Positions 2,026 to 17,423 of a stretch of 24,259 nt of DNA are shown piece after piece (the stretch's first letter is position 1; every line of letters starts with the position of its first letter). The notes beneath the pieces were generated by a model that was given only the letters and a program-made list of their open reading frames with translations, was not told the DNA's origin and did not search any database. Origin of the DNA: a virus; the IMG/VR virus record IMGVR_UViG_3300036395_000004, positions 1-24,259 of that record, one strand, 5' to 3'. The translations under genes were made by a program, and so were the position numbers.

Positions 2026-2547
2026 TCAGCCCTCTACCTCGCTGCTTTCGAGCCTCAGCGAAAAGTGATTCGCTTCTAGCTTTTGATTTAGCGAATCTAG
2101 TTCCTCAGATGTGAAGTCACCGATCGCTGTAATCCCGCGCATTGCTTCCCGCAGTTCAGCGATCGCAAATGCTAAATCCGGTAAGCTCTGGGTCGAAGTC
2201 AACGTGCCATAGAGCAACGTCCACGCTGCATTTGCTCTGACCGTTCGACCGGCAGCAGTAAACGACTTTTGCCAAATCAGAGTACCGCGCAGGGAATCGA
2301 TCAGTCCCGTCCAGTTTTCAGTCACAGGCGCGGTGAACTCAGGAAGCGTCCACTGATTGTTTTGCCAGAAATGCAAATCTGAAGGCCGCGCGGGTTTGAT
2401 TTGAATTTCAAACCCATCCCAGAAAAGCATCTCAGCAGGCAAGTCATCGACTCCTTTAACAACTTGAAAACCCGCAAGCTCCAATGTCGGATCGTCGGTC
2501 GTGCCACAGATTTGATTTTGATTCTTTTGGATTAGAAAGTACTGCAT
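2026..2547 (-). CDS. Tail-fibre-associated protein, possible fibre assembly or accessory protein
   Basis: This is the last gene of the phage operon, 173 residues, starting eight bases below the stop of the fibre gene. I do not recognise the family with certainty. The N-terminal half is short-stranded (MQYFLIQ, then WDGFEIQIK and DLHFWQNNQWTLPE). The second half is helical and ends with a pattern (DLAFAIAELREAM, FTSEELDSLNQKLEANHF) that looks like a compact helical domain. Position after the fibre suggests a chaperone or tip protein for it. An A8 run sits between the fibre stop and this ATG and no clear ribosome binding site is seen. Confidence 0.45.
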   Translation of the reverse strand: MQYFLIQKNQNQICGTTDDPTLELAGFQVVKGVDDLPAEMLFWDGFEIQIKPARPSDLHFWQNNQWTLPEFTAPVTENWTGLIDSLRGTLIWQKSFTAAGRTVRANAAWTLLYGTLTSTQSLPDLAFAIAELREAMRGITAIGDFTSEELDSLNQKLEANHFSLRLESSEVEG

Positions 2548-2554
2548 ATTTTTT

Positions 2555-3904
2555 TTAGATTGGGATGATGTTTCTGACCTGAAGCTGCCCTACACTGCCA
2601 GCCTGTCCCGGCCCGCCGCCCAGCCCAGCAAAACTGCCGCCACTAACAGAGCCGTTTACCGCAGTCGCAATCGTGGAAACCCCGCCGTTTAGGTTGATTG
2701 CCGCTCCGGTCAAATTCACCGTTGGAGCCGTCGTCACGAGCCATCCACCGCCACCGCCACCCGCCGTTTGAAAGGTTGAGGCATCAGGATATCCCGTTCC
2801 CCCGTCACCGCCCTTGACTGATAGCTGAGATCCGGCAGACGCTACGACCGATCTCAGGCTCTTGAGCCAGATCAAGCCACCTGAGCCACCGCCCGCGCCC
2901 GTGATCAAGCCACCTGGAAACCCAGTCAAAGCCCCTCCTGCAAAGTTCAGTACCGAGGCGTTACCCTGACCATTTTCACCATTCGCCGTAATTGTCCCAG
3001 TGACCGTGATCGTGCCTGCCGCTTCGATAATCAAGCAGCCGCCGCCATTGCCGCCGCGCGGAGTTCTCATCGCGATGCCTCCAGCCAGATTCGCAATGAA
3101 GCTCCCAGCCCCGCCACTTCCCACGGGCGAGGTAAAGTAAGAGTAAGTATTTGTGCTTATAGAGTTAACTGAAGCCCCGCCCCCGACTCCAGCGCCGATA
3201 TAGTTCGGATAGCTTTGCGGAGCGAAAACGCCGTAATGTCCGCTCCCGCCCGCAATCGGCGCAGTCACGACTACATTTCCGCTGATCGTCACATTGCCTG
3301 AGCAAAAGAGGGTTGCACCGCCCGCAATCGTTAACGTCGCACCCGCGCTCACCGTGAAATTCTGAAACCAGTTCTCGCCACTCAGGGTCGCTGTGCCCGA
3401 AGAGAGCGTATAACTTCCTTGCTCGCCTGATCCACCAAAGATTCGGATGGACTGCGCGATCGGTAGAACCTGATAGCGTGGGCGAAGATCTTCGACTGCC
3501 CCGACAATCTGAATGTTATTCGTGAGTACTTTCCCCAGCATCACACTCCGCACGGGGCGAATCGTGGAGGATTGCACCAATCCGGCTGAGTTGACAAAGA
3601 CAAAACTCTCGGTGTTTGGAGCTAAACTAAGCTGCCCCGGTGAGATCGTTAAAACCTCTCCGCTCGGCAGTACCACAGACCCACCCGCATAGTCCACGAC
3701 CAGCCCATTCGCAGCGGTGACTCGCAAGACATTTTGAAAAGCAGTCCAGTTCGCTTTGATATTTCCCGGCGCAGCGGTCAAGGCGCTGTCTGTTAGAGGC
3801 GGATAGCTGCCATCCACATCCGTGCCGTTGAAGTCGATCGCTTGCATTGCATTGAACCAGGCTGCCGGAACCCGTCGCCCTCGACTGAAATTCGTTTTCG
3901 CCAT
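2555..3904 (-). CDS. Tail fibre protein with glycine-rich distal region
   Basis: The 449-residue protein has an N-terminal part (1-150) with the look of a phage fibre attachment domain (AAWFNAMQAIDFNGTDV, then VVLPSGEVLTI and VEDLRPRYQVL). From about 160 onward it is a long beta-rich stretch made of Gly, Ser, Thr and Ala, with many GGG and GGSG turns (for example AGGGGGGW near 380-387), as in trimeric fibres or glycine-loop tips. It has no catalytic motif that I can see. A GGGAGT ribosome binding site sits just before the ATG. The role, host recognition, is inferred from position at the end of the tail module and from composition. Confidence 0.65.
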   Translation of the reverse strand: MAKTNFSRGRRVPAAWFNAMQAIDFNGTDVDGSYPPLTDSALTAAPGNIKANWTAFQNVLRVTAANGLVVDYAGGSVVLPSGEVLTISPGQLSLAPNTESFVFVNSAGLVQSSTIRPVRSVMLGKVLTNNIQIVGAVEDLRPRYQVLPIAQSIRIFGGSGEQGSYTLSSGTATLSGENWFQNFTVSAGATLTIAGGATLFCSGNVTISGNVVVTAPIAGGSGHYGVFAPQSYPNYIGAGVGGGASVNSISTNTYSYFTSPVGSGGAGSFIANLAGGIAMRTPRGGNGGGCLIIEAAGTITVTGTITANGENGQGNASVLNFAGGALTGFPGGLITGAGGGSGGLIWLKSLRSVVASAGSQLSVKGGDGGTGYPDASTFQTAGGGGGGWLVTTAPTVNLTGAAINLNGGVSTIATAVNGSVSGGSFAGLGGGPGQAGSVGQLQVRNIIPI

Positions 3905-4003
3905 AAAAAGACTCCCAAACTAAACTCTATAAGCCAAATGAGATTTCTGAAACGATGTTTAGGTCGTCCAGTATTGTTGAAAATCGAAAAGAAACTCTAT
4001 CCG

Positions 4004-6277
4004 TCAAGGTGCAGGAGTCGGTAAAGTCGTACCGGGAGCCATCGCGTACATCGTTGCTCTCCCGGAAGCCGAGATGTAAAGTAGATTGGCAATGCGAGGG
4101 TCAGCGGCTAAATGCACCATCCCGTTAATCCGAGTCAATGCCGGATCAGAAATCCGCTGCCAGTTTTGCCCTAGGTCAACCGAGCGATATAAAGCATCTT
4201 GAGCTGCACCACCGACTCGACCAAAGATGTAAACGTAGTAAGGGATTGTTCCTTCTCCAACTCCGATCGCTACAAACTCTGCGGAGTCCACTGAAGTGAC
4301 AATCGAGACGGTCTGACCGCCATCGGTCGAGCGCCACAGTTTATTGGTCTTGGAGTCGAGTTGTTCCGTATCTTTGGCAAACGAGAACCAGACATCATTA
4401 TCAGCAAATGGGTTAGGCGCGATCGTCACCTTAATTCGATAGGTTGGAAACTGCCCTCGGCTGGTTCGCGTCCAGGTTGCACCGGCATCATTAGAAACGT
4501 ATAACAAACCTTCCCAAGTTGACTCAAGATAGTAGAATCGCCCGTTAATTCGCTTGTCGGCTTCCAGAATCCCGGAGCATACTCTGGCATTGATGTTGTT
4601 TGCCCAACTTGAAAACACATCTGCTCCTGTCCCAGCCATCTTACAGACGCTCCAGGTATTGCCTCCATCGGTTGTGTAGTAGGGACTGAAGTTACGCGGA
4701 ACCCAAACCATACGATCTGTACCACGACGATCTACCGCAATTTGACCCGCCCGACCGCGCTCGGTTAACTGGGTTGTCGTATTAAGTCGAGTGGGGACAG
4801 ACCCAAACGCCTGCCAGGTTTGTCCGTGATCGTTGGTTTTCCCGTACATCGGAATCCAGTCCTCAACCTGGTGATACCCGACAAAAGCAGCTTGTTGAGG
4901 GTTTGTCCACGCGACATCAATCGAGCTACAGCCAGTAGTTGAATCCAGCGGAGCTGGAAAAGTGGTTGTTCCTGCGGGTACGATCCAAGTGGGTGTTCCA
5001 GTAGGTACAGGAATGCCCGTCGCTGCAATGTTCTTCGCAGCAGGGGCATCCAGACTAGTCTGCTTAAATCCCAACTTATCCATCACCGCCGTGTAGAAAT
5101 AGAAGTTATTCAGCGGGGTGGGAACTGGGCGTGTCATCACTCCAACAAACTGCTCCAGACCCAACATTTCCCACGACCAGGTTGGAACTGCCAGATTCGA
5201 GTTAAACGACCGTGCGACTCCAAACCCGTTTGTGAACCAAGCGTTATTCGCATTGGCGGGATCAAAAGCAATTGAGACGACAAGATTATTGGCTAAACTC
5301 GTTGTCATATAGCCGGGAGCCGAAACGTTCTGGGGAAACCGCAAGTCAGCATCGCAGCGCGTCCAGTTCGCCCCTTGATTATTTGACTTCCAGATTTTCG
5401 TGTTTCCTGAAACAAGAATCTGATTCCCATCAGGATGAACCGCAATTCCAGACAATGCACCTGCCCCAGAAGGCGTTACATTTGTCCAGGCTCCATCTCG
5501 ATAACGCTGGAGGTTTCCACGCGAGCCAAACTGGTTTCTTTCCCCAAACACGCAGTATAAATCGCCGTTCGCAGCGATCGCAGCTCTCAGCGGCTCCATC
5601 TGAATGTTACCGGCTGTCGTATTGGAAATATTTGTCCAAGCTCCGCCAACCGTAGGCCGCCGCCAAACTCCAGAACCATACGCTCCAACGTACATAACAG
5701 GAGTTTCGACACCGCTTGTTCCTGAAGATTTGTCGTGCAGAACCCAGGTAAATCCAGGCTTATCGGTGCGGGTTAAACCACCCCAAAACAGGGTAGACGG
5801 AGCGGGTAAACCAGTAACTTGTTCCCAAGCCGCGCTGCCTCGCTTCACCCATACCCCGTCATTCCGAGAGCCGAACCAAATATTCTCAGGCTTATTCGGA
5901 TCAACGGCTAACCGCTCACCCGTCTCTGCTCGAAACTCACCATTCGGTTCAATTTTGACGTTCGATGTTTGTAGACCCGTGGGTGTCCAGTTCACACCTT
6001 TGTCTGTGGATCTCCAAACTTCTCCAATGTAGCTCCAGACGTTGCCATCATTGGTGTTCTGTTTCCAAAAGGCGGCGTAAACAATATTGGGATTGGTCGG
6101 GTCAACCGCAAGCGATTCGACTCCTTCCGCGCGGGCGTTTGTTGGAAACTTCTCAAACAGATAGATCCAGTCGTTGTCTGGTCGATCAAAGCGGTAAACA
6201 CCGCCAGTATCCGTTCGGACGTACAAATCGAAAGGAGCTAGAGGTGAAATACTAATTCCGGTGACGAATCCTGACAT
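4004..6277 (-). CDS. GH74-like (xyloglucanase-type) double beta-propeller tail protein
   Basis: The 757-residue protein contains many Asp-box turns (WRSTDKGVNW, TTDGGNTW, VSNDAGATW, WRSTDGGQT), the mark of beta-propeller enzymes. Beyond that it follows GH74 landmarks in order: GFVTGI at 3-8, RTDTGGVYR at 21-29 with Asp23, GVESLAVDP at 52-60, GERLAVDP at 120-127, NGFGVARS at 350-357, GLEQ at 373-376, and AVMDKLGF at 397-404 with Asp400. In GH74 enzymes Asp residues at the first and last of these motifs are the catalytic pair. There is no signal peptide and no attachment domain is obvious. Its place between fibre genes indicates a virion enzyme or receptor-binding protein that acts on a glucan-like surface polymer. 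The fold is fairly sure, the substrate unknown. Confidence 0.7.
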   Translation of the reverse strand: MSGFVTGISISPLAPFDLYVRTDTGGVYRFDRPDNDWIYLFEKFPTNARAEGVESLAVDPTNPNIVYAAFWKQNTNDGNVWSYIGEVWRSTDKGVNWTPTGLQTSNVKIEPNGEFRAETGERLAVDPNKPENIWFGSRNDGVWVKRGSAAWEQVTGLPAPSTLFWGGLTRTDKPGFTWVLHDKSSGTSGVETPVMYVGAYGSGVWRRPTVGGAWTNISNTTAGNIQMEPLRAAIAANGDLYCVFGERNQFGSRGNLQRYRDGAWTNVTPSGAGALSGIAVHPDGNQILVSGNTKIWKSNNQGANWTRCDADLRFPQNVSAPGYMTTSLANNLVVSIAFDPANANNAWFTNGFGVARSFNSNLAVPTWSWEMLGLEQFVGVMTRPVPTPLNNFYFYTAVMDKLGFKQTSLDAPAAKNIAATGIPVPTGTPTWIVPAGTTTFPAPLDSTTGCSSIDVAWTNPQQAAFVGYHQVEDWIPMYGKTNDHGQTWQAFGSVPTRLNTTTQLTERGRAGQIAVDRRGTDRMVWVPRNFSPYYTTDGGNTWSVCKMAGTGADVFSSWANNINARVCSGILEADKRINGRFYYLESTWEGLLYVSNDAGATWTRTSRGQFPTYRIKVTIAPNPFADNDVWFSFAKDTEQLDSKTNKLWRSTDGGQTVSIVTSVDSAEFVAIGVGEGTIPYYVYIFGRVGGAAQDALYRSVDLGQNWQRISDPALTRINGMVHLAADPRIANLLYISASGRATMYAMAPGTTLPTPAP

Positions 6278-6303: not shown

Positions 6304-6963
6304 TTAGACAATAAAAACGGGCTGCGAACTGCCGTTAAATCGCAACTTTGTATTTACGGAGTAGAGCCAGAAATTGGGGGTCGGTGCGGGGGTTGGGCTT
6401 GTTGATCCAGAAGCTCCCGCTTCGCCCCGCGCAGCAATCAATTGCCAGAACACCGAGTTACTGCCGGGTGTACTGCCCTTCGTGGGGTTCGAGTTTACAT
6501 ACAGATACGAGCCACCGCCAAAGGATACTAACGACCCTTCTGAGTAAAAAATAGCTGGGCTGTAGTTTCCTTCTGGTCTAAACCACCTCAGCGTATTTGC
6601 ATATCCAGGGTCACTCACGAGCAGTTGAGCGATCCGCCGCAAGCCTGCGGGAAGTAAATCCGTCTGAGCGCCGATTGGAAGCAATTGCCAAAAGTCACAT
6701 CCCGCCACATTCGGCACAATCGCACTAAAAGCGGGAATAACAAGTCCTCTGTTGTCTCGAATCTCAAAGCGGTAGGTAATTTGACTCGTCTCGCTTTGCG
6801 GTAATGTAATATCGATTTCGCCCGCCGTTGAAATTTGATAGTCACGCGGCTTTGGAACTAGCATCGTGTCACCATCGAGTAGTGGTGCGTCTAGAGTCAC
6901 TCTCAGCGACCCCCCAAACGCAACGCCCCCCGAATCGGTTAACTTTCCCTTAATTATCGTCAT
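6304..6963 (-). CDS. Tail fibre protein with carbohydrate-binding-like and collagen-like motifs
   Basis: The 219-residue product starts with a beta-rich domain (1-100, including ITYRFEIRD) that may anchor to the baseplate. Residues 133-178 (YSPAIFYSEGSLVSFGGG, YLYVNSNP, then VFWQLIAARG) match the small CBM5/12-like repeat common in phage fibres, in which an empty-surface strand is followed by N-x-P and W-x-L. A short collagen-like GEAGASG and a Pro-Thr linker follow, then a final strand domain. The gene overlaps the tail protein I gene by ATGA, so it is translationally coupled to the baseplate genes and probably encodes the proximal connector of the fibre. Confidence 0.6.
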   Translation of the reverse strand: MTIIKGKLTDSGGVAFGGSLRVTLDAPLLDGDTMLVPKPRDYQISTAGEIDITLPQSETSQITYRFEIRDNRGLVIPAFSAIVPNVAGCDFWQLLPIGAQTDLLPAGLRRIAQLLVSDPGYANTLRWFRPEGNYSPAIFYSEGSLVSFGGGSYLYVNSNPTKGSTPGSNSVFWQLIAARGEAGASGSTSPTPAPTPNFWLYSVNTKLRFNGSSQPVFIV

Positions 6964-7562
6964 AGTAAAGCATCCTCTTCATCAAAGATTGGGTCGCCGC
7001 AACAGCTAAAATCCGCATAAAATCCGTCGTAAACCACATCGGAATCGCAGTAAGCCGCGCCGTAGAGTCGGTTCAGTTTTCGCGCCAAATTAAACTCAGA
7101 GCCAAGCTCTAAAGGCAGTCTCACAAAGTAGCGATATTCAGGTTCACCAAGGTCAGCGTCTAAGATACTGACCTCCGCGAGGAATTCAGTTTCTTGCCAG
7201 ACATCAAAGCGATCGCCTAAAAAGAGTTGCAGCACAAATTCCAGTACTTGTTGAGTGCCACGCAGCCGCCACAGATAGTTCAACCCATTGCGAATCAAGA
7301 CTCGCTTGGTTGCGGGAGTCCAGGTTGAATCCCAGTAGTCCCCCGTAAAGCCGCTCAACGCTGCGAGATAATCTAGCCACTGTTCATCGCAAGTATCAGG
7401 ATCGAGTTGGCGCAGCGCTACTTCATCAATTCGGGCTTTAAGTTCAATCAGAAATCGATCCCAAGTGCCGGAAAGCCAACCGCTTACTTCGCTCTCTTGA
7501 TAGACTTCCGGTAGATTGCCAGTGAAAGGAACCCCGTCTCGCCAAGCTTTAGGATCAGACAT
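6960..7562 (-). CDS. Tail protein I (P2 gpI-like baseplate component)
   Basis: This 200-residue protein sits directly after baseplate J, as gpI does in P2-like phages. It has the gpI family features: LPEVYQE near the N-terminus, then a helical middle with LDPDTCDEQWLDYLAALSG (the usual D-x-x-x-CP..LLP-like wedge segment) and TKRVLIRNGLNYLWRLRGT, matching the R-G-T that precedes the C-terminal beta part. It helps join the wedges to the tail fibres. It overlaps the J gene by eight bases and the next gene by four. The C-terminal tail is acidic (DEEDALL). Confidence 0.8.
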   Translation of the reverse strand: MSDPKAWRDGVPFTGNLPEVYQESEVSGWLSGTWDRFLIELKARIDEVALRQLDPDTCDEQWLDYLAALSGFTGDYWDSTWTPATKRVLIRNGLNYLWRLRGTQQVLEFVLQLFLGDRFDVWQETEFLAEVSILDADLGEPEYRYFVRLPLELGSEFNLARKLNRLYGAAYCDSDVVYDGFYADFSCCGDPIFDEEDALL

Positions 7563-8808
7563 CAGGAACCTCTCCTGTCATCGAAGTATCCTCCCCGAAT
7601 GCGTAGGTGTAGAGGGTCTGATCGGGAGTAAATCCTTCAAAATAGCCGCCTGTGAGTTGGGGGAGTGACTTTGCATTTGGCAACAAGACATCTTGACCTA
7701 ACCCGTTCAGCACGACCGAGTTAACGCGACGCACTCCGAGAACATTCCTCAGTAGGAATTTCAGGTCATTGAGGTTGACGTAATCGGATTCTGCGTAGGT
7801 TGTGGGGCTAAGGAAAGCTTGCAGAGCGCCGCGCATCTCATCGAAGACATCCTCTGGATTGAATCCGTCAAAGATCTGAACAATCACTTTGACTTCAATT
7901 TGAATGAATTCGATTGGAGTGAAGTAGACCGTAGTTCCTAATGGAACCAATCCACTCAATCGGGCTTGGATATCATTGCACTCCGCCTCACTGGGTAGAG
8001 ACTGATCGCTCCTGACTCCGAATACATGAACGCTGCCGATTTGATAGGTAATACCGTCCGCGCCGATCAGTGGAAGTGCGATCGCTCGACTGCCCGACCC
8101 TAAGAAATCTACTGCCGCTTGTTCGTAGTCACTCTTGACGATTAAGGTATCGCGCCGCCGAATCGCTTCTAGGGCACGGGACTCAACCTGCTCCAGTGAC
8201 TCAGGATTACTCCCGCCGAATGCTGGCTCTAAATTCCGAACTTCGCTTAAGTTGGCATAAGGAACGGTGAACAAGGTTAATACGCCTGCGGGAACATTCC
8301 CGATTTCCCCGACCTGGGTGCATTCTGCAATCACTGATCCAGAACTGTTGCCGGGTGTGATAACTAAAGCTTCTAAGGTGACAAAGGTGAGATCGATGTC
8401 GTTCGAGCTAAGGAGTGTTGCATCCGGTCGCACCTCAAAGCCTGCTGGAATCTGATAGCTGCTTGTGATTGCGGTTGAGAGTATGAAGGTTAGTTCTACC
8501 CGCGCCCGCTGTCCGAGTGACCGCTGAACCCCCGCTAAACGAAGGTAAGCAACGGCTAAGGCTCTCGGTAGTTTGTTGACATACCAAAGGATTTCAGACC
8601 CTAGCCGCGCTAAAGTTCGATTGAAAACTGCTAAGGGATTGTGGGTCGTGGTATCGTTCAGCCGCCCGCCCGATCGATTAAACCCATCGAGCATCGACTC
8701 CTCAGCCAGTTCTTCCTCATTTCGCGGGTCTAGAACCGGATAAGGAATCAAACTACCTTCATCACTGGAGTTTGTATTTGGATTAAATGTAACAGAGGTG
8801 TCGGTCAT
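7555..8808 (-). CDS. Baseplate J-like wedge protein
   Basis: I take the ATG at 8808, whose A starts an ATGA overlap with the gp25-like gene stop; the frame is open back to 8853 but those starts would lie inside that gene. The 417-residue product shows the J family pattern: a helical N-terminal part (NRTLARLGSEILWYVNKL), a strand region with IPAGFEVRPD, then EIGNVPAG, followed by ESLEQVESRALEAIRRRDTLIVKSDYEQAA, which is the typical J central helix, and a C-terminal ferredoxin-like part. It builds the wedge of the contractile baseplate together with the gp25-like protein and protein I. Confidence 0.88.
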   Translation of the reverse strand: MTDTSVTFNPNTNSSDEGSLIPYPVLDPRNEEELAEESMLDGFNRSGGRLNDTTTHNPLAVFNRTLARLGSEILWYVNKLPRALAVAYLRLAGVQRSLGQRARVELTFILSTAITSSYQIPAGFEVRPDATLLSSNDIDLTFVTLEALVITPGNSSGSVIAECTQVGEIGNVPAGVLTLFTVPYANLSEVRNLEPAFGGSNPESLEQVESRALEAIRRRDTLIVKSDYEQAAVDFLGSGSRAIALPLIGADGITYQIGSVHVFGVRSDQSLPSEAECNDIQARLSGLVPLGTTVYFTPIEFIQIEVKVIVQIFDGFNPEDVFDEMRGALQAFLSPTTYAESDYVNLNDLKFLLRNVLGVRRVNSVVLNGLGQDVLLPNAKSLPQLTGGYFEGFTPDQTLYTYAFGEDTSMTGEVPDV

Positions 8809-9158
8809 AGTCGGAGGGAGATTGCGGGTTGAGGAATATTCGAGATCGACCAATCGATGCGGAGATCGAGCAAGCCGTTTTCACCGAATTGACCAGAGCA
8901 ACGAATGTCCAGCGTTGGGTAGTCAGGTAACAGTAAGGCTCTTAATCGGGCTTCAGTATCTCGAACGATCGCGCCCGCATCAGGTAGGGAATCAAATAAT
9001 CGATTTGGTACGCCATAGTTAGGCAAGGTTAAATACTCGCCCGGTTCAATCGTGAGAACGTGCATAATGGCATTTCTCACGACGTCTGAATCTTCAGACA
9101 CCGCAAGCCCGCCGCCAGAGAGTTCTAGCGGGAATCGGATCGAACGAATGGTGGTCAT
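8805..9158 (-). CDS. gp25-like (gpW family) baseplate wedge protein
   Basis: The 117-residue protein is a short wedge protein of the T4 gp25/P2 gpW type, which nucleates sheath polymerisation. It carries the expected region VRNAIMHVLTIEPGEYLTLPNYG at 27-49 (EPGE conserved; the usual following Arg is Tyr42 and PDFG is PNYG). A helical stretch with VRDTEARLRALLLPDYP follows. The start codon shares one base with the spike gene stop (TGATG) and the stop overlaps the J start. The order spike, gp25, J, I is the standard one. Confidence 0.85.
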   Translation of the reverse strand: MTTIRSIRFPLELSGGGLAVSEDSDVVRNAIMHVLTIEPGEYLTLPNYGVPNRLFDSLPDAGAIVRDTEARLRALLLPDYPTLDIRCSGQFGENGLLDLRIDWSISNIPQPAISLRL

Positions 9159-9892: not shown

Positions 9893-12175
9893 CTACCCTG
9901 CCATCGGAGGCGCACCTTCTTTGGGAAGGATGTCTCTGGGGTTAACTGAGACTTGCCCGCCTGGTCTTCTTACTTCAAAGTGGAGGTGAATTTGGTATTG
10001 ATTCATCGTTTGTCCTGAGCCACCCCGGACTGCGATCTGAGACCCTTTAGTGACTCGTTGACCCTGTTGGACTTGGATCGAGGCGAGATGAGCGTACCAA
10101 GTCTCCCAACCATCGCTGTGACGAATAATCACTAATTTTCCATAGTCATCAATCAATTCGTTCCGAGCCGTGACAACTTGACCATCCCGGGCGGCGACGA
10201 CTTGATCAGGGGTGAAGCTCCCGATATCCGTTCCGTGGTGCATTCTTCCGCGAGCATTTCCCCATTCGCAGCGAGGGCCGCAAGTGTTTCCAGTAATCGG
10301 CCACATCCACTCTCCCGGCGGAACAGGTTGAGCATTGGTTTGACCCTTCGCAACCGTGTCAAAACTGCCTTTGTTTAGCTCCTGCTCGGGAACCTTCAAA
10401 TCTTGTGGAGAGAATGCCTGAATCTGCGATCGCAGACTGCCCAAGTCATAGTCATGAACAATCTGATCGATCATCCAAATTCGATTAAACACCGGTCGGG
10501 GGTGTCCTGCGGTATTGAAAGCCGATGCCGCATCTAGACGCAAAATTGCGGGAGTGGTGGGGATATCGAAGGTACTGGGCAATGCCTTCACTCGCTTCAA
10601 GACATAACGAGTCGCTGCCCCTGCACTGGTGGGATCAGAAACGGGCGGTGGGGTGGATGCCCCTGTTGAACCCGGAGTTAAAGGTGTGGGCGCGTTCAGA
10701 ATCGCAGTGAATTCTTGCTGTTCGCGTCGCCTCAGTTGTCGCTCTGGTTCTGACTGTAGCCGAGTGATCTGACCCGTCTGGGCATCAATCATCGTCTTGG
10801 CCTCATCTCGGACACTGCTCTCGCTCGAAGCGGTAAACTTTGTACTCGCATCTTGCACTTCTTGTAGCTGAGAGGTTGCTTGATCACTCAGCGACCACGT
10901 ATCTAGTTCGCCGCCCAGGTAATACAAAATGAATCCTGTGTCGGTCGCAGGGGGGCGCGTGAAGATTAACGTTCCTCCTTTGTCTGAGATCGAGAAGCCG
11001 TGAAACTGACATTCCCGCATCAGTAGCTGATAGTCGGTTAGCCCGGATTGATCCACATACTGCAATGTAATATTTGCCATTGCGGGATCAGTCTTGGCAG
11101 TTAAGCCGTAAGCCGCTGCGACTCGTTGGGCAAGCTGGGTCAGAGTAATCGTCTTAAAGGCCGTGTTTCGCTTGATCCGATTCATCGCCGCCCGAATCGA
11201 TTGACCACTAAAAGTCGTTGTGCCCGCATGATCAGTATCTGTCTTGGTATGAATAAATTCGGCTGTGAGTAACGTCCGGTTATTCTCAAACCCCAGCCGC
11301 ACTTCGATCACTCGCCCCTTCGCTGACACTTCTTCTGAATTAGGGAGTTGTTGAGAGGAAGCGGTAGAGGCCACCGGTTGATTTGTCGAAGCGTTGGCTT
11401 GAACCCCGGGCAGTTGTTTCAGCCATTTTTGATAAAAGTTTTCATAGTCCTGCCGCCACAATCCGCCTTGAATATTCGTATACGCGGTTTGACGATTGCT
11501 ATCCGGTGTGGGCATCCAGCGATCAATTCCACCCGCACCCGTCCAACCCTCTTTCATTCCTGAAATTAGCAAAGTGGTAGACACGTCGGGGCGAAGTGCG
11601 AGATCAGGGTTGCCTACTAAATCGAGTCCTAAACGACTGCCCCACTTACGATAGTTATCTACACCTGTAATCTGAGCTAAACCGCGCCCGCCGTACTGCC
11701 CGAACGCGCCGCCTTCCGCGTTATAAGCTTGGTGGTTGAAGGAACTTTCACCTTCTGCGACCGCTAAAAGAAAGGCGATCTTTTGGGGTGCGGTGATTCC
11801 TTGTCGTCGGGCTTCAGCAATGATGGCAGGAGGCACGTCAGCGATCGCACTGCTATTGGCTCCTGATAGTCCAGGATTTGTGGAAGATGCGCTGGCTTGA
11901 GAACTCTGTTCTGGAGGGAGTCCGCGAATCCCTTGTTCTCGGAACGTCGTCTCGATATATTTTGCCGCAATCTTGTTGTCGCGATCATTTAGCTTAACCG
12001 TGCAAGAGGAGGAGCGACTATTTCTAGATAACGTCACATTGGCACTGACTAAGATGCCGTCCCCGGTGCGAAACGTATCGCCGCGACGATAATCCGCTGC
12101 ACTGCTCAGATCCACATCATTCGCGTCTGAGATCGAGACTTGGCAATAGCCACAAATCAGTCTTTCACGCACCAT
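9893..12175 (-). CDS. Baseplate hub protein with inserted GH19-like lysozyme and C-terminal M23 peptidase
   Basis: The ATG at 12175 is chosen because it shares its A with the upstream stop (TGATG); the frame is open to 12187. The 760-residue protein begins with a hub strand domain (1-75). At about 105-255 there is a GH19-type domain: AEGESSFN at 140-147 (Glu143 likely catalytic), GQYGGRGLAQITGVDNY at 159-175, VGNPDLA at 187-193. The hub resumes at 285-430 with gpD-like features (LTQLAQRVAAAYGL, YVDQSGLTDYQLLMRECQFHGFSI). The end (622-752) is an M23 metallopeptidase with HxxxD (His646, Asp650), YAH (His696) and HLH (His730, His732). The two enzymes should cut glycan and peptide bonds of the wall during injection. 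Confidence 0.85.
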   Translation of the reverse strand: MVRERLICGYCQVSISDANDVDLSSAADYRRGDTFRTGDGILVSANVTLSRNSRSSSCTVKLNDRDNKIAAKYIETTFREQGIRGLPPEQSSQASASSTNPGLSGANSSAIADVPPAIIAEARRQGITAPQKIAFLLAVAEGESSFNHQAYNAEGGAFGQYGGRGLAQITGVDNYRKWGSRLGLDLVGNPDLALRPDVSTTLLISGMKEGWTGAGGIDRWMPTPDSNRQTAYTNIQGGLWRQDYENFYQKWLKQLPGVQANASTNQPVASTASSQQLPNSEEVSAKGRVIEVRLGFENNRTLLTAEFIHTKTDTDHAGTTTFSGQSIRAAMNRIKRNTAFKTITLTQLAQRVAAAYGLTAKTDPAMANITLQYVDQSGLTDYQLLMRECQFHGFSISDKGGTLIFTRPPATDTGFILYYLGGELDTWSLSDQATSQLQEVQDASTKFTASSESSVRDEAKTMIDAQTGQITRLQSEPERQLRRREQQEFTAILNAPTPLTPGSTGASTPPPVSDPTSAGAATRYVLKRVKALPSTFDIPTTPAILRLDAASAFNTAGHPRPVFNRIWMIDQIVHDYDLGSLRSQIQAFSPQDLKVPEQELNKGSFDTVAKGQTNAQPVPPGEWMWPITGNTCGPRCEWGNARGRMHHGTDIGSFTPDQVVAARDGQVVTARNELIDDYGKLVIIRHSDGWETWYAHLASIQVQQGQRVTKGSQIAVRGGSGQTMNQYQIHLHFEVRRPGGQVSVNPRDILPKEGAPPMAG

Positions 12176-12456
12176 CAGAATAACCACGAAATACGTTCGA
12201 TTACAGACTTGAGTTTTTGAGTGCCATCCGCGAGAACGGTATCGACTTGCTGTTTGACTTGATCGACCTTGGCATTAATCGCTGACACATTCTCCAGAGA
12301 CTCTGGGGTGAACGTTCCAATCTCCGGTAAGATTCCCGCGGGAATCTCGAACGGCGCGACGTTTAACGCATCCAGCACTTCTCGATAGAATGTCGTAGAA
12401 CCGAATCGCTCTAACGCAATCGATTCAAGGTTTTGGCTTAAAGGTTCCACGGTCAT
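12175..12456 (-). CDS. Small LysM/tail protein X-like baseplate protein
   Basis: The 93-residue protein opens with SQNLESIALERFGSTTFYREVLDALNV and then IPAGILPEI. This resembles the LysM-type pattern of tail protein X (sequence of the type dTLesIA..fYG...yw..I..aN....p..l..G..l.iP). The second half is a helix (ENVSAINAKVDQVKQQVDTVL). Tail X-like proteins link the hub and tube and contact the peptidoglycan. It overlaps the previous gene by 32 bases and the hub gene by one. The LysM resemblance is degenerate, so the family call is tentative. Confidence 0.55.
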   Translation of the reverse strand: MTVEPLSQNLESIALERFGSTTFYREVLDALNVAPFEIPAGILPEIGTFTPESLENVSAINAKVDQVKQQVDTVLADGTQKLKSVIERISWLF

Positions 12457-13204: not shown

Positions 13205-15205
13205 TTAGAGGCTCGACAGTTGATATTGATTCCAGTGCTGTTCCATCCGGTTCATGACTAAGTTCGCGAGTGATTCTTCGTTCATACCCGGCGCGGGATT
13301 GACGACGATTTGGGGTGCGAAGGTTGAGCCGCCGCCGCGCGTTCTTGTAGCAGAGACTAAACTGACGAGATCCCGCTGTTGAGCACGATTGAGAATCGTT
13401 TCTGAGGTGTTGGCGATGGCGAGGTTAGAACCAGAGGGCATCAGTGCAGTTTCGCGGGCGATCGCACTAAACAGTGAACCGACATTGAGACCTGCTGCAT
13501 TGTTGGATACCGCTTGTCCCGCATTGAGACCTGCCGTATTGTTGGATACCGCTTGTCCCGTAACCATGCCCTTGACTGTCCCAATCGGGTTGGCAAGGAA
13601 TCCTTTGATTCTTTCAACAGAATCCTGGAACCAAGTCTGAACGGACTCTACGATTCTTTGGACGCTGTTTTGCACAGACCCGATAAAGCTCGTAAAGGTG
13701 CTGCCGATCGAGGTGATGACTTTGTTGATCACGCCGCCGATCCAATCTTTTACTGAGTTGAAGGCATTTACCGCGCTGTCTTTAATCCAAGTCCAGGTGT
13801 TGCCCCATATGGCAGTAATCAAGCCCCAATTATCGGTAACTACTTTTACTGCTCCGATCGCAAGCAAGGCAACGCCAGCCGCAACTAGGACGGGAACAGA
13901 CGTTATCGCGGCGACACCTGCTGCAATCGCGGCTCCTAATGCCCCGATAACACCAATAGCTAGGGTTCCGCCAATAACAACCAATCCAACGGATAGATAG
14001 GTCGTCCAGTCTAGATTCGCTAAGAATGAACCGAGAGCTTTTAGGGAAAATGTAACGGCATCGCCTAAAGACTTCGCAAGTTGCCCGAAGTTGATTTTCG
14101 ACAAGTCGCCCAGCTTGCCGAATGCAGCATCGATCGTATCAGCAAGGACTTGCCCCAACCTTTCGGGACTGAGCTTAGTTAAATCTGGGAGCGTCAACCC
14201 TCTGAGAAAATCCCCGGCTTTTTGCGCCCAACCGGAAACGGTCATAACACCGTTGTACAGCAGGAGCATCGGATCGCCTAAATTAAGCCCTAGTGCTTTC
14301 AAGGTCTTGCCAACTGTATCGAACAAGCCGCCTTTTCCTAACACCGAAGCCAATAGGGTGGCAAACCCATCCATTACATTACGAGACTTATCGTTTACTT
14401 TAGTCACGGCTCTGAGGAAGCCGAATAGTCCCGCGCTTTCATCGAATAGTGAGTACTCGATCGCTTTGATTCTGGTTTTAGCGGTCGTTTGAAGGTCGCG
14501 AATCATTTCAGGGGGTGCGAGTCCTTGTGTTGCTGCCTCAAAGATCTTCACCCGCTGCTGGAGTGTGAGATCCTCGATTTTCTTGCCCTCACCGTGGATC
14601 TTCTTCGAGGCTTTTTCGAGTTGACCCATCAAGCCCGGCATTCTCTCATTTAATTTCAAAACGCTCAATTCGCTTTCAGACGCGCCCTCAGCAAACTTGG
14701 TAAAGAACAGTTGAATATCACTATTTTCAATCCCCGATGCGGGATCTTTTAGTAGTCCGAGCGTCTTTGTCAGGGATAGCGCTTGCTGCTTGAAAGCTTT
14801 CTCATCAAAGATGTCATTGAGCGAATTCGATTTGATGAGGGTATCCGAGATTGCTAAACCTAAATCCTTAAAGCCCGCAGCATCCCCTAACGTCGCCGCC
14901 ATCTCTCCGATTTCTTCGTTCAGATCTCCAACCAACTTCGCGCCATAAGCATAGTCTTTGTTGGTCATCGCCCCAAACTGACCCGCGAGCTTAATCGCGG
15001 ATTCCTGTGCACCCGCCGCATCAGAAAAGCGGTTCGTTAATGCACCCACCGCTCCAGCCGCTTGCGAAAGGGCGCTCGTGTACATATTCCCTAAAAAGAC
15101 CGCGCCCGCACCTAACCCTTGTGTCTGTGACCCCAGCCCTCTTAAAACGGGAGATAACTTGTCCAGTGCATCTAAAATCACTGTGATTTTGTTCTGTCCA
15201 GACAT
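13205..15205 (-). CDS. Tape measure protein
   Basis: This 666-residue protein lies just after the two chaperone frames, the fixed place of the tape measure gene. It is mostly helical and rich in Ala, Gly, Leu and Lys, with two strongly hydrophobic segments at about 404-430 and 432-457 (VGLVVIGGTLAIGVIGALG and PVLVAAGVALLAIGAV), as is common in these proteins. A stretch at 474-540 has repeated Trp residues in helices. Residues 550-575 are two copies of a 13-residue repeat. Its start shares one base with the chaperone stop (TAATG). It sets tail length and is expelled at injection; at about 0.15 nm per residue the tail would be roughly 100 nm (inference from the general rule). Confidence 0.88.
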   Translation of the reverse strand: MSGQNKITVILDALDKLSPVLRGLGSQTQGLGAGAVFLGNMYTSALSQAAGAVGALTNRFSDAAGAQESAIKLAGQFGAMTNKDYAYGAKLVGDLNEEIGEMAATLGDAAGFKDLGLAISDTLIKSNSLNDIFDEKAFKQQALSLTKTLGLLKDPASGIENSDIQLFFTKFAEGASESELSVLKLNERMPGLMGQLEKASKKIHGEGKKIEDLTLQQRVKIFEAATQGLAPPEMIRDLQTTAKTRIKAIEYSLFDESAGLFGFLRAVTKVNDKSRNVMDGFATLLASVLGKGGLFDTVGKTLKALGLNLGDPMLLLYNGVMTVSGWAQKAGDFLRGLTLPDLTKLSPERLGQVLADTIDAAFGKLGDLSKINFGQLAKSLGDAVTFSLKALGSFLANLDWTTYLSVGLVVIGGTLAIGVIGALGAAIAAGVAAITSVPVLVAAGVALLAIGAVKVVTDNWGLITAIWGNTWTWIKDSAVNAFNSVKDWIGGVINKVITSIGSTFTSFIGSVQNSVQRIVESVQTWFQDSVERIKGFLANPIGTVKGMVTGQAVSNNTAGLNAGQAVSNNAAGLNVGSLFSAIARETALMPSGSNLAIANTSETILNRAQQRDLVSLVSATRTRGGGSTFAPQIVVNPAPGMNEESLANLVMNRMEQHWNQYQLSSL
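13483..13560 (-). repeat. Two tandem 39-bp repeats in the tape measure gene
   Basis: Bases 13483-13521 and 13522-13560 are nearly identical, differing at three or so positions. They encode GQAVSNNTAGLNA and GQAVSNNAAGLNV (residues 550-575). The unit is a multiple of three, so gain or loss keeps the frame and would change tape length by 13 residues. Confidence 0.9.
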
Positions 15206-16250: not shown

Positions 16251-17423
16251 CTAGTCAGAGAGGCGAGCAGTAAATGTACCTACCGGGACTCGAACCGTCC
16301 GACCAACAATCTTTTCGACTGGGGCTGAGGGAATGAGATAGGCATCGAATCGCAGGATTCCAGCTTCAGTATCAAGGGCGGGATTATTCGTTTCATCGCA
16401 CACGACTAGAAAGGAGTCGCCTGGGTTTACGCCAAACAATGCGCCCGATTGCCAGATTCGATAAAGCACTTCCTCGGCGGTGTCTTTGACTCGGCGGTAG
16501 ATGATGCCTCGACCTTCGTTGAGATCGAATAGCAAGATGTCGAATGCTTCTCGGAGTGTGCGTTTAACCACGTTAAAAGTGACGCGCTGGTTGATGAATC
16601 GGAAGTACTCATTGGTGGAACGAGTGCGAGCACCCCACACGACTAACTGACCGTTGGAATGCCGCTTCAGTAAGTTGATTCCGAGGGGGTTCGCCACATC
16701 TTGTTCAGAGCGAGTGTAGTATTTCGTAAGTCCTTTGACTCCTCGAATGGGGTAACGTAAACCCGCTGGAGCTTGAGCAAATCCTTGAGCCCGATATCGT
16801 CGGGTTGCGACACCCGCGACCACAGGTGAGGGCGGTAGCTCTTTATCCTCTTGAGTGATTACCCAAGGCGAATAGTAAGCGGTGTGTCCGGCGGCTGAGA
16901 CATAAGGAACGCCTTCAGTTTGCAGTTCGCCCGTGGTGTCGGTTGCCTTAGAACAATCTAGGAGGGCGATCCAATCGAAGTTCTCATCTTCTGCAATGTC
17001 GCGCATCTTACTGGCAACGGAAAGTTTATCCGACGCAGTGGTTAGACGCTCGAATGCTTGCGGTGCAAGTAGAAATCCCTGCGGCTGATCCTCATTAAAT
17101 GCAACCCCAAGCGTTGCGACAAATTCAGAGGCTACGGTGAGATTGGGAGCGGCGGCTGCGACTCGTGTAAAGTACAGGATGCCTTGTGGGTCGTTGTCGA
17201 AGTAAAGCTTGACGTAATCCGTTGAGAGCGATGCGCCGAATTGATTCGTAAAGTCAGTCGGGGATACAACTTGAGTCGGCGTGTTCACATCCCCAATCGT
17301 GGATGTACCGACCATATAAACGTGCCCGAAGGTGGCAATCTCAACGGGGATATAACCGTCCTGATCCTCTACGATGTAAACGCCGGGGCTGAGAAACTGC
17401 GAGAGCGAAATTGTAGTAGCCAT
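16251..17423 (-). CDS. Contractile tail sheath protein
   Basis: The 390-residue product begins with FLSPGVYIVEDQ (10-21), the typical N-terminal sheath motif, and continues with VEIATFGHVYMVGTSTIGDVN and a dF..qFG element (FTNQFGAS). The middle has the handshake region with PSPVVAGVATRRYRAQGFAQAPAG. The C-terminal part (FRFINQRVTFNVVKRTLREAF, then YLIPSAPVEKIVG and VPVG) is the conserved C-terminal sheath domain. It forms the contracting outer tube. Its presence defines the phage as a myovirus. Confidence 0.93.
   Translation of the reverse strand: MATTISLSQFLSPGVYIVEDQDGYIPVEIATFGHVYMVGTSTIGDVNTPTQVVSPTDFTNQFGASLSTDYVKLYFDNDPQGILYFTRVAAAAPNLTVASEFVATLGVAFNEDQPQGFLLAPQAFERLTTASDKLSVASKMRDIAEDENFDWIALLDCSKATDTTGELQTEGVPYVSAAGHTAYYSPWVITQEDKELPPSPVVAGVATRRYRAQGFAQAPAGLRYPIRGVKGLTKYYTRSEQDVANPLGINLLKRHSNGQLVVWGARTRSTNEYFRFINQRVTFNVVKRTLREAFDILLFDLNEGRGIIYRRVKDTAEEVLYRIWQSGALFGVNPGDSFLVVCDETNNPALDTEAGILRFDAYLIPSAPVEKIVGRTVRVPVGTFTARLSD

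Follow-up and report, generated by a model that had tools for sequence, protein, structure and literature searches.

The 24,259 bases of an IMG/VR virus record analysed here, referred to below as the window, are a prophage-like module, and its tail-fibre operon contains a gene whose product is firmly supported by sequence comparison as a full-length GH74 homologue. The best explanation for this gene, with a probability of about 0.55, is that it encodes a depolymerase of the tail tip, or at least of the tail locus, directed at a glucan of the host sheath; both its catalytic activity and its presence in the virion are what we infer from the data presented below.

The minus strand of the window encodes a contractile-tail structural module comprising TerL, portal, capsid, sheath, tube, tape measure, hub, spike, wedges, and fibres. 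A DNA copy of 96.5% identity is present in the chromosome contig JAHHHU010000004.1 of Phormidium tanganyikae FI6-MK23 (the Phormidium copy). The features relevant to the argument are the following:

1-775, IS1-family transposase, two ORFs (possible frameshift pair), 99-100% identical at the protein level and found in the same place in the Phormidium copy
2026..2547, minus strand, 173-aa protein at the operon end
2555..3904, minus strand, long-tail-fibre orthologue with the gp34 shoulder (residues 1-150) and a different Gly-rich arm
4004..6277, minus strand, GH74-like double beta-propeller protein of 757 aa, without a signal peptide and without the first strand
5078..5080, minus strand, Asp400 codon; the residue aligns with the second catalytic Asp, in the GDxxGF motif
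6209..6211, minus strand, Asp23 codon; the residue aligns with the catalytic Asp in the RTDIGG motif of PoGH74
6304..6963, minus strand, truncated short tail fibre of 219 aa, corresponding to A-1(L) gp33 in its beta-ring and joint part and ending in a Gly/Pro linker and 23-residue C-terminal peptide; stem and cell-binding domain are lacking
6960..7562, minus strand, baseplate wedge (Tail_P2_I), orthologue of A-1(L) gp32
7555..8853, minus strand, baseplate wedge (Baseplate_J), orthologue of A-1(L) gp31
9893..12187, minus strand, baseplate hub with lysozyme-like and M23 peptidase domains
16251..17423, minus strand, tail sheath, 52.6% identical to that of Leptolyngbya phage Lbo402-yong5
22552..23850, minus strand, terminase large subunit, nearest to those of cyanophages

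The GH74 reading frame comprises 757 codons counted from its ATG; a TAA lies three codons ahead of this ATG and there is no in-frame start upstream. The bounds given in the preliminary description were exact, while the strand had to be corrected to minus, the plus-strand reading of 4004-6277 being crowded with stops. The GH74 landmarks quoted there were all found, and in the order given.

Membership in GH74 is indicated by both sequence and fold, the resemblance going well past what coincidence would give. A phmmer search of the PDB chains gave 18 sequences at E <= 1, of which 17 were GH74 (E from 1e-47 to 3e-19), the best being PoGH74 (6mgj; E 1.4e-47, residues 2-745), and the last a homeobox chain with an insignificant E of 0.89. 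The AlphaFold2 model, built on an alignment of 38 GH74 homologues (pLDDT 70, pTM 0.65), supports a tandem double beta-propeller: when it was used as a Foldseek query against the PDB, ranks 1-25 were all occupied by GH74 chains (TM 0.60-0.80), and beyond GH74 came LRP6 and sortilin chains with TM of about 0.2-0.3 (0.21-0.25 for sortilin). NCBIfam gave propeller models only, all below the cutoff, and Pfam, apart from generic Asp-box models, a Sortilin-Vps10 match. The latter is Pfam's sole label of the full-length type and speaks for another Asp-box propeller, of the sortilin/Vps10 or HCF136/Ycf48 type, in place of GH74, but it spans just 90 residues (645-734) of what in sortilin is a ten-bladed propeller, while all significant PDB sequence matches and the top 25 folds are GH74; HCF136/Ycf48 (PSII_BNR) gave no match in Pfam at E 0.1 or in the PDB at E 1. 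Such an identity is therefore extremely improbable. The assignment to GH74 proposed in the preliminary description, which had named best matches to sortilin/Vps10 or HCF136-like propellers as one outcome that would count against it, is borne out by the sequence matches and the model overlay, with GH74 on top in both kinds of search. The phage protein shares with the GH74 endo-xyloglucanases PoGH74 (6mgj), CtXgh74A (2cn2), and XccXeg74 (7kn8) the full-length two-propeller fold, both catalytic Asp residues, and the Asp-box repeats; it differs from them in its sequence (ca. 30% identity), its location in a tail operon, the absence of the signal peptide and first strand, and the lack of the Trp/Tyr platform at subsites +3, +5, and +6.

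The two candidate catalytic residues do occupy conserved positions, as had been proposed. Asp23 and Asp400 are invariant across the 38-sequence GH74 alignment and also in a wider set including cyanobacterial proteins, except for one truncated row at Asp23, and the surrounding motifs RTDxGG and DxxGF are kept in the phage protein. The Asp of GDxxGF, the counterpart of Asp400, we take to be the second catalytic Asp of GH74, as is established for the family. The exact equivalence of the two rests on alignment; the PDB title of 2ebs, a fungal GH74 enzyme, names D465N. In the AlphaFold2 model residues 400-403 have a pLDDT below 50, whereas the global overlay on GH74 fits. Asp23 is aligned with the Asp of RTDIGG in PoGH74, the position mutated in chain 6mgl, which reads RTAIGG there. 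An offset of 32 in the PoGH74 chain numbering reproduces W347, W348, Y372, and W406, the aromatic residues tested for xyloglucan processivity at +3/+5/+6 in GH74 (PMC10317168), and since it fits every aromatic named in that paper, the counterpart of Asp23 is residue 70 in its numbering; D60A in the PDB title of 6mgl is taken to refer to the same residue in another numbering.

All four of these aromatic residues are absent from the phage protein when it is aligned with PoGH74, the WW loop being deleted, and so are W61 and W64 of the negative side. The aromatic platform of processive, xyloglucan-specific GH74 enzymes was not found in the phage protein, and because it is gone, the substrate is probably not xyloglucan. 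Judging from the sequence, endo-acting GH74 activity is possible for the protein, processive cleavage of xyloglucan is not likely, and xyloglucan is an unlikely substrate for it in general; the biology of the host would suggest a glucan of its sheath or EPS.

The location of the gene is that expected of a tail-associated depolymerase, i.e., the tail-fibre locus of a tailed phage. The order J, I, short fibre, GH74, long fibre corresponds to gp31-gp34 of Anabaena phage A-1(L), which are consecutive in its genome, with the GH74 gene inserted between the short-fibre (gp33) and long-fibre (gp34) orthologues. The tail structure of A-1(L) has been solved, and gp33 there consists of a beta-ring (residues 2-110), a joint (111-215), a stem (216-282), and a cell-binding domain (PMC10966104). 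The short fibre of the window aligns only with gp33 residues 32-190, and the GH74 gene starts 26 nt after the gene encoding it. The window and A-1(L) (gp33, gp34; 8ke9) have in common the gene order and the anchoring domains of both fibres, but in A-1(L) the short fibre is complete, stem and cell-binding domain included, and gp33 and gp34 have no enzyme encoded between them. Similarly, phage Lbo402-yong5 (OR994056), most of whose core proteins are about 30-64% identical to those of the window, has a complete short fibre of 488 aa with a homologous N-terminus (47.5% identity) and lacks GH74. A fusion of the short fibre with GH74 by frameshifting was ruled out, as there are stops in both frames between the two genes and the Phormidium copy has the same spacer sequence. 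The Gly-rich arm of the long-fibre orthologue has no relatives in the PDB or Pfam. No family match was found for the 173-aa protein, which by its position alone is possibly a fibre chaperone.

The label "distal tail protein" of the preliminary description holds as far as the gene lies inside the tail-fibre segment, between the short- and long-tail-fibre orthologues, but is imprecise, the protein having no tail-attachment domain. The endosialidase of phage K1F sits on the phage tail and acts on the capsule polysaccharide of its host. This Asp-box propeller depolymerase of family GH58 (named in PMC2716378) resembles the role proposed for the GH74 protein in being a propeller hydrolase of a phage tail, and differs in having a single 6-bladed propeller and in belonging to another family.

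The suggested cyanophage origin of the window was confirmed by the TerL, sheath, tail-fibre, and prophage matches, with TerL closest to those of Microcystis phage Mic1 and Lbo402-yong5. The Phormidium copy is flanked on one side by a polysaccharide-synthesis cluster (WecG, GDP-mannose dehydratase, glycosyltransferase, Wzc-like) and on the other by ferrochelatase and TPP-enzyme genes. The scanned flanking ORFs included no recognisable integrase or replication genes, and no tRNA was found nearby, so the copy is possibly a defective prophage. The idea of a GTA-like element passed on vertically was considered and, despite the failure to find an integrase, dropped: 42 genomes of the order contained no close copies. 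A contig (G001/L002) that might have been an independent variant with a different downstream module differs from the window exactly as the Phormidium copy does in every fully covered gene; it was assigned to the same strain, and its breaking off at the short-fibre stop codon was put down to the assembly. Between the tail genes and IS1 the plus strand carries a gene (1025-1744) for a GDSL-like esterase with a lipoprotein-like N-terminus (LLGCN), possibly a host gene or a moron.

Between the window and the Phormidium copy, divergence is below 1% in the neighbouring fibre gene, rises to 5-14% over GH74, and then drops, making GH74 the divergence peak outside the tape-measure gene. Its 142 synonymous and 68 non-synonymous changes correspond to dS of 0.32, dN of 0.040, and dN/dS of 0.13, while dS of most other genes is about 0.1 or less (the exceptions being the short fibre, 0.175, and the indel-rich tape measure, 0.65). 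The GH74 gene is under purifying selection, and the 53 differences between the two phage GH74 copies leave Asp23 and Asp400 untouched in both. The pattern is consistent with recombination having brought in a diverged allele that then came under purifying selection, which is what a host-interaction module would be expected to show. The tape-measure gene contains a 39-nt tandem repeat (13483-13560) and differs strongly from the Phormidium copy over 13483-14560, the protein being 67% identical over residues 213-666; these differences may reflect variation in tail length.

The closest relatives of the phage protein outside the phage pair are secreted cyanobacterial proteins. In a phylum-wide sample of 386 cyanobacterial genomes GH74 matches were found in 21, and they fall into clade A, nine proteins with 39-42% identity to the phage GH74 over the HMMER match, and clade B, comprising the remaining ones, mostly near 30-35%. 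In the maximum-likelihood tree the phage pair and clade A are sister groups (support 100/100); the long branch of the pair drew a program warning. Like the phage protein, clade A has lost the WW loop and carries the motifs TNGxGVAR and DxIGF/DKLGF. Clade A proteins are 845-890-aa open frames, and the complete ones begin with a hydrophobic N-terminus of the signal or lipobox-like type, after which comes a strand such as FNWKSVNIQGMG, whereas the phage form lacks a signal peptide; their neighbours, examined in three genomes, are ordinary cellular rather than phage genes, including one for a polysaccharide flippase. The members of clade A keep both catalytic Asp residues and lack the same four aromatics of the xyloglucan platform. 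The papers searched did not describe a function for them. A report of GH74 in a cyanobacterial biofilm (PMC4937211) was rejected as support for a cyanobacterial role, since the protein is listed among those of heterotrophs. A plasmid of Bradyrhizobium barranii, conjugative, encodes a GH74-like protein annotated as sialidase family (3866-6013) near type I secretion and glycosyltransferase genes.

GH74 has been listed among putative viral auxiliary genes of a cold seep, without a tail context (PMC8319345). A comparable protein was not found in PHROGs or among the full-length folds of BFVD (no viral protein there matched both propellers, with query TM of at most 0.33), the phage genomes searched gave no convincing one, and no other phage of these collections was found to have GH74 in this position. 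Their sole match, MT838787, was not accepted as a phage GH74, being an unverified 4.9-kb faecal scaffold whose protein possesses the ordinary N-terminal strand and clusters with GH74 proteins of bacteria. Non-exhaustive pattern scans of IMG/VR (with the protein alone, the PoGH74 alignment, and the cyanobacterial alignment) revealed no second viral GH74.

Cellular GH74 proteins open with a strand such as YTWKNARIDGGGFV (YxWKNxxIGGGG), typical of GH74 though not formally defining it, whereas the phage ORF begins with MSGFVTG and the protein opens at SGFV. Either the phage protein tolerates the loss, or the strand may be supplied in trans by another chain, and one may speculate that the 23-residue C-terminal peptide of the short fibre is the donor. 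A two-part fibre, in which this peptide of an anchor-only short fibre completes the separately encoded propeller, so that a captured host-type sheath enzyme is docked to the baseplate by strand complementation, is a rather improbable arrangement.

In the proposed scenario, the phage or its ancestor would have taken up a secreted, cyanobacterial-type GH74 gene, minus its signal peptide, into the tail-fibre operon, the transfer probably running from cyanobacterium to phage and the signal-less form being that of the phage. The gene would have come to lie directly behind a short-fibre gene reduced to the baseplate-anchoring beta-ring and joint, and its product probably serves as a separate subunit replacing the lost stem and binding domain, docked on the truncated fibre. 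The Asp23/Asp400 pair may then cut a beta-glucan-like backbone and so clear the way through a filamentous cyanobacterium's sheath or exopolysaccharide. Against this count the absence of an attachment domain, of the N-terminal strand, and of the +3/+5/+6 aromatics, the low confidence of the Asp400 region, and the lack of such a gene in this position in other phages of the searched collections.

An alternative is a propeller that has lost its cutting activity and grips a sheath or surface glycan for adsorption as a GH74-derived, lectin-like receptor-binding module. Its place is that of the missing stem and cell-binding domain of the short fibre, its aromatic subsites are gone, and several residues near the second Asp deviate from the classical enzymes (E376Q, H406Q, G391N). 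Nevertheless, the catalytic Asp residues and their motifs are kept, both Asp unchanged among the differences between the copies, and the overall dN/dS is low. It is because of the intact Asp pair and the strong purifying selection that an enzyme appears favoured over a receptor-binding derivative, which we consider unlikely, if the least so of the alternatives. Somewhat less probable still is a soluble, non-virion enzyme, made late and released at lysis to free the progeny from the sheath or to alter the biofilm. A separate ORF with its own start and no tail-attachment domain agrees with it, the absent signal peptide suits release by lysis, and this would be a natural fate for a captured secreted enzyme; the position between fibre genes in the operon and the truncation of the short fibre there argue for a structural role instead. 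That the gene belongs to a decaying prophage and has no current function is suggested by the lack of recognisable integrase and replication genes beside the Phormidium copy and by the IS1 element at the edge, yet this is very unlikely, as neither copy has an interrupted structural ORF and most dN/dS values in the module lie at 0.03-0.3.

Little is understood about how phages get through the thick polysaccharide sheaths that surround filamentous cyanobacteria. Read as a sheath depolymerase, the phage GH74 is a concrete, expressible candidate enzyme for this step, with secreted cyanobacterial proteins as its nearest relatives, and the place for such an enzyme is located in the tail of a structurally solved phage type, that of A-1(L). 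It also suggests that the range of GH74 extends past plant xyloglucan to microbial sheath glucans.
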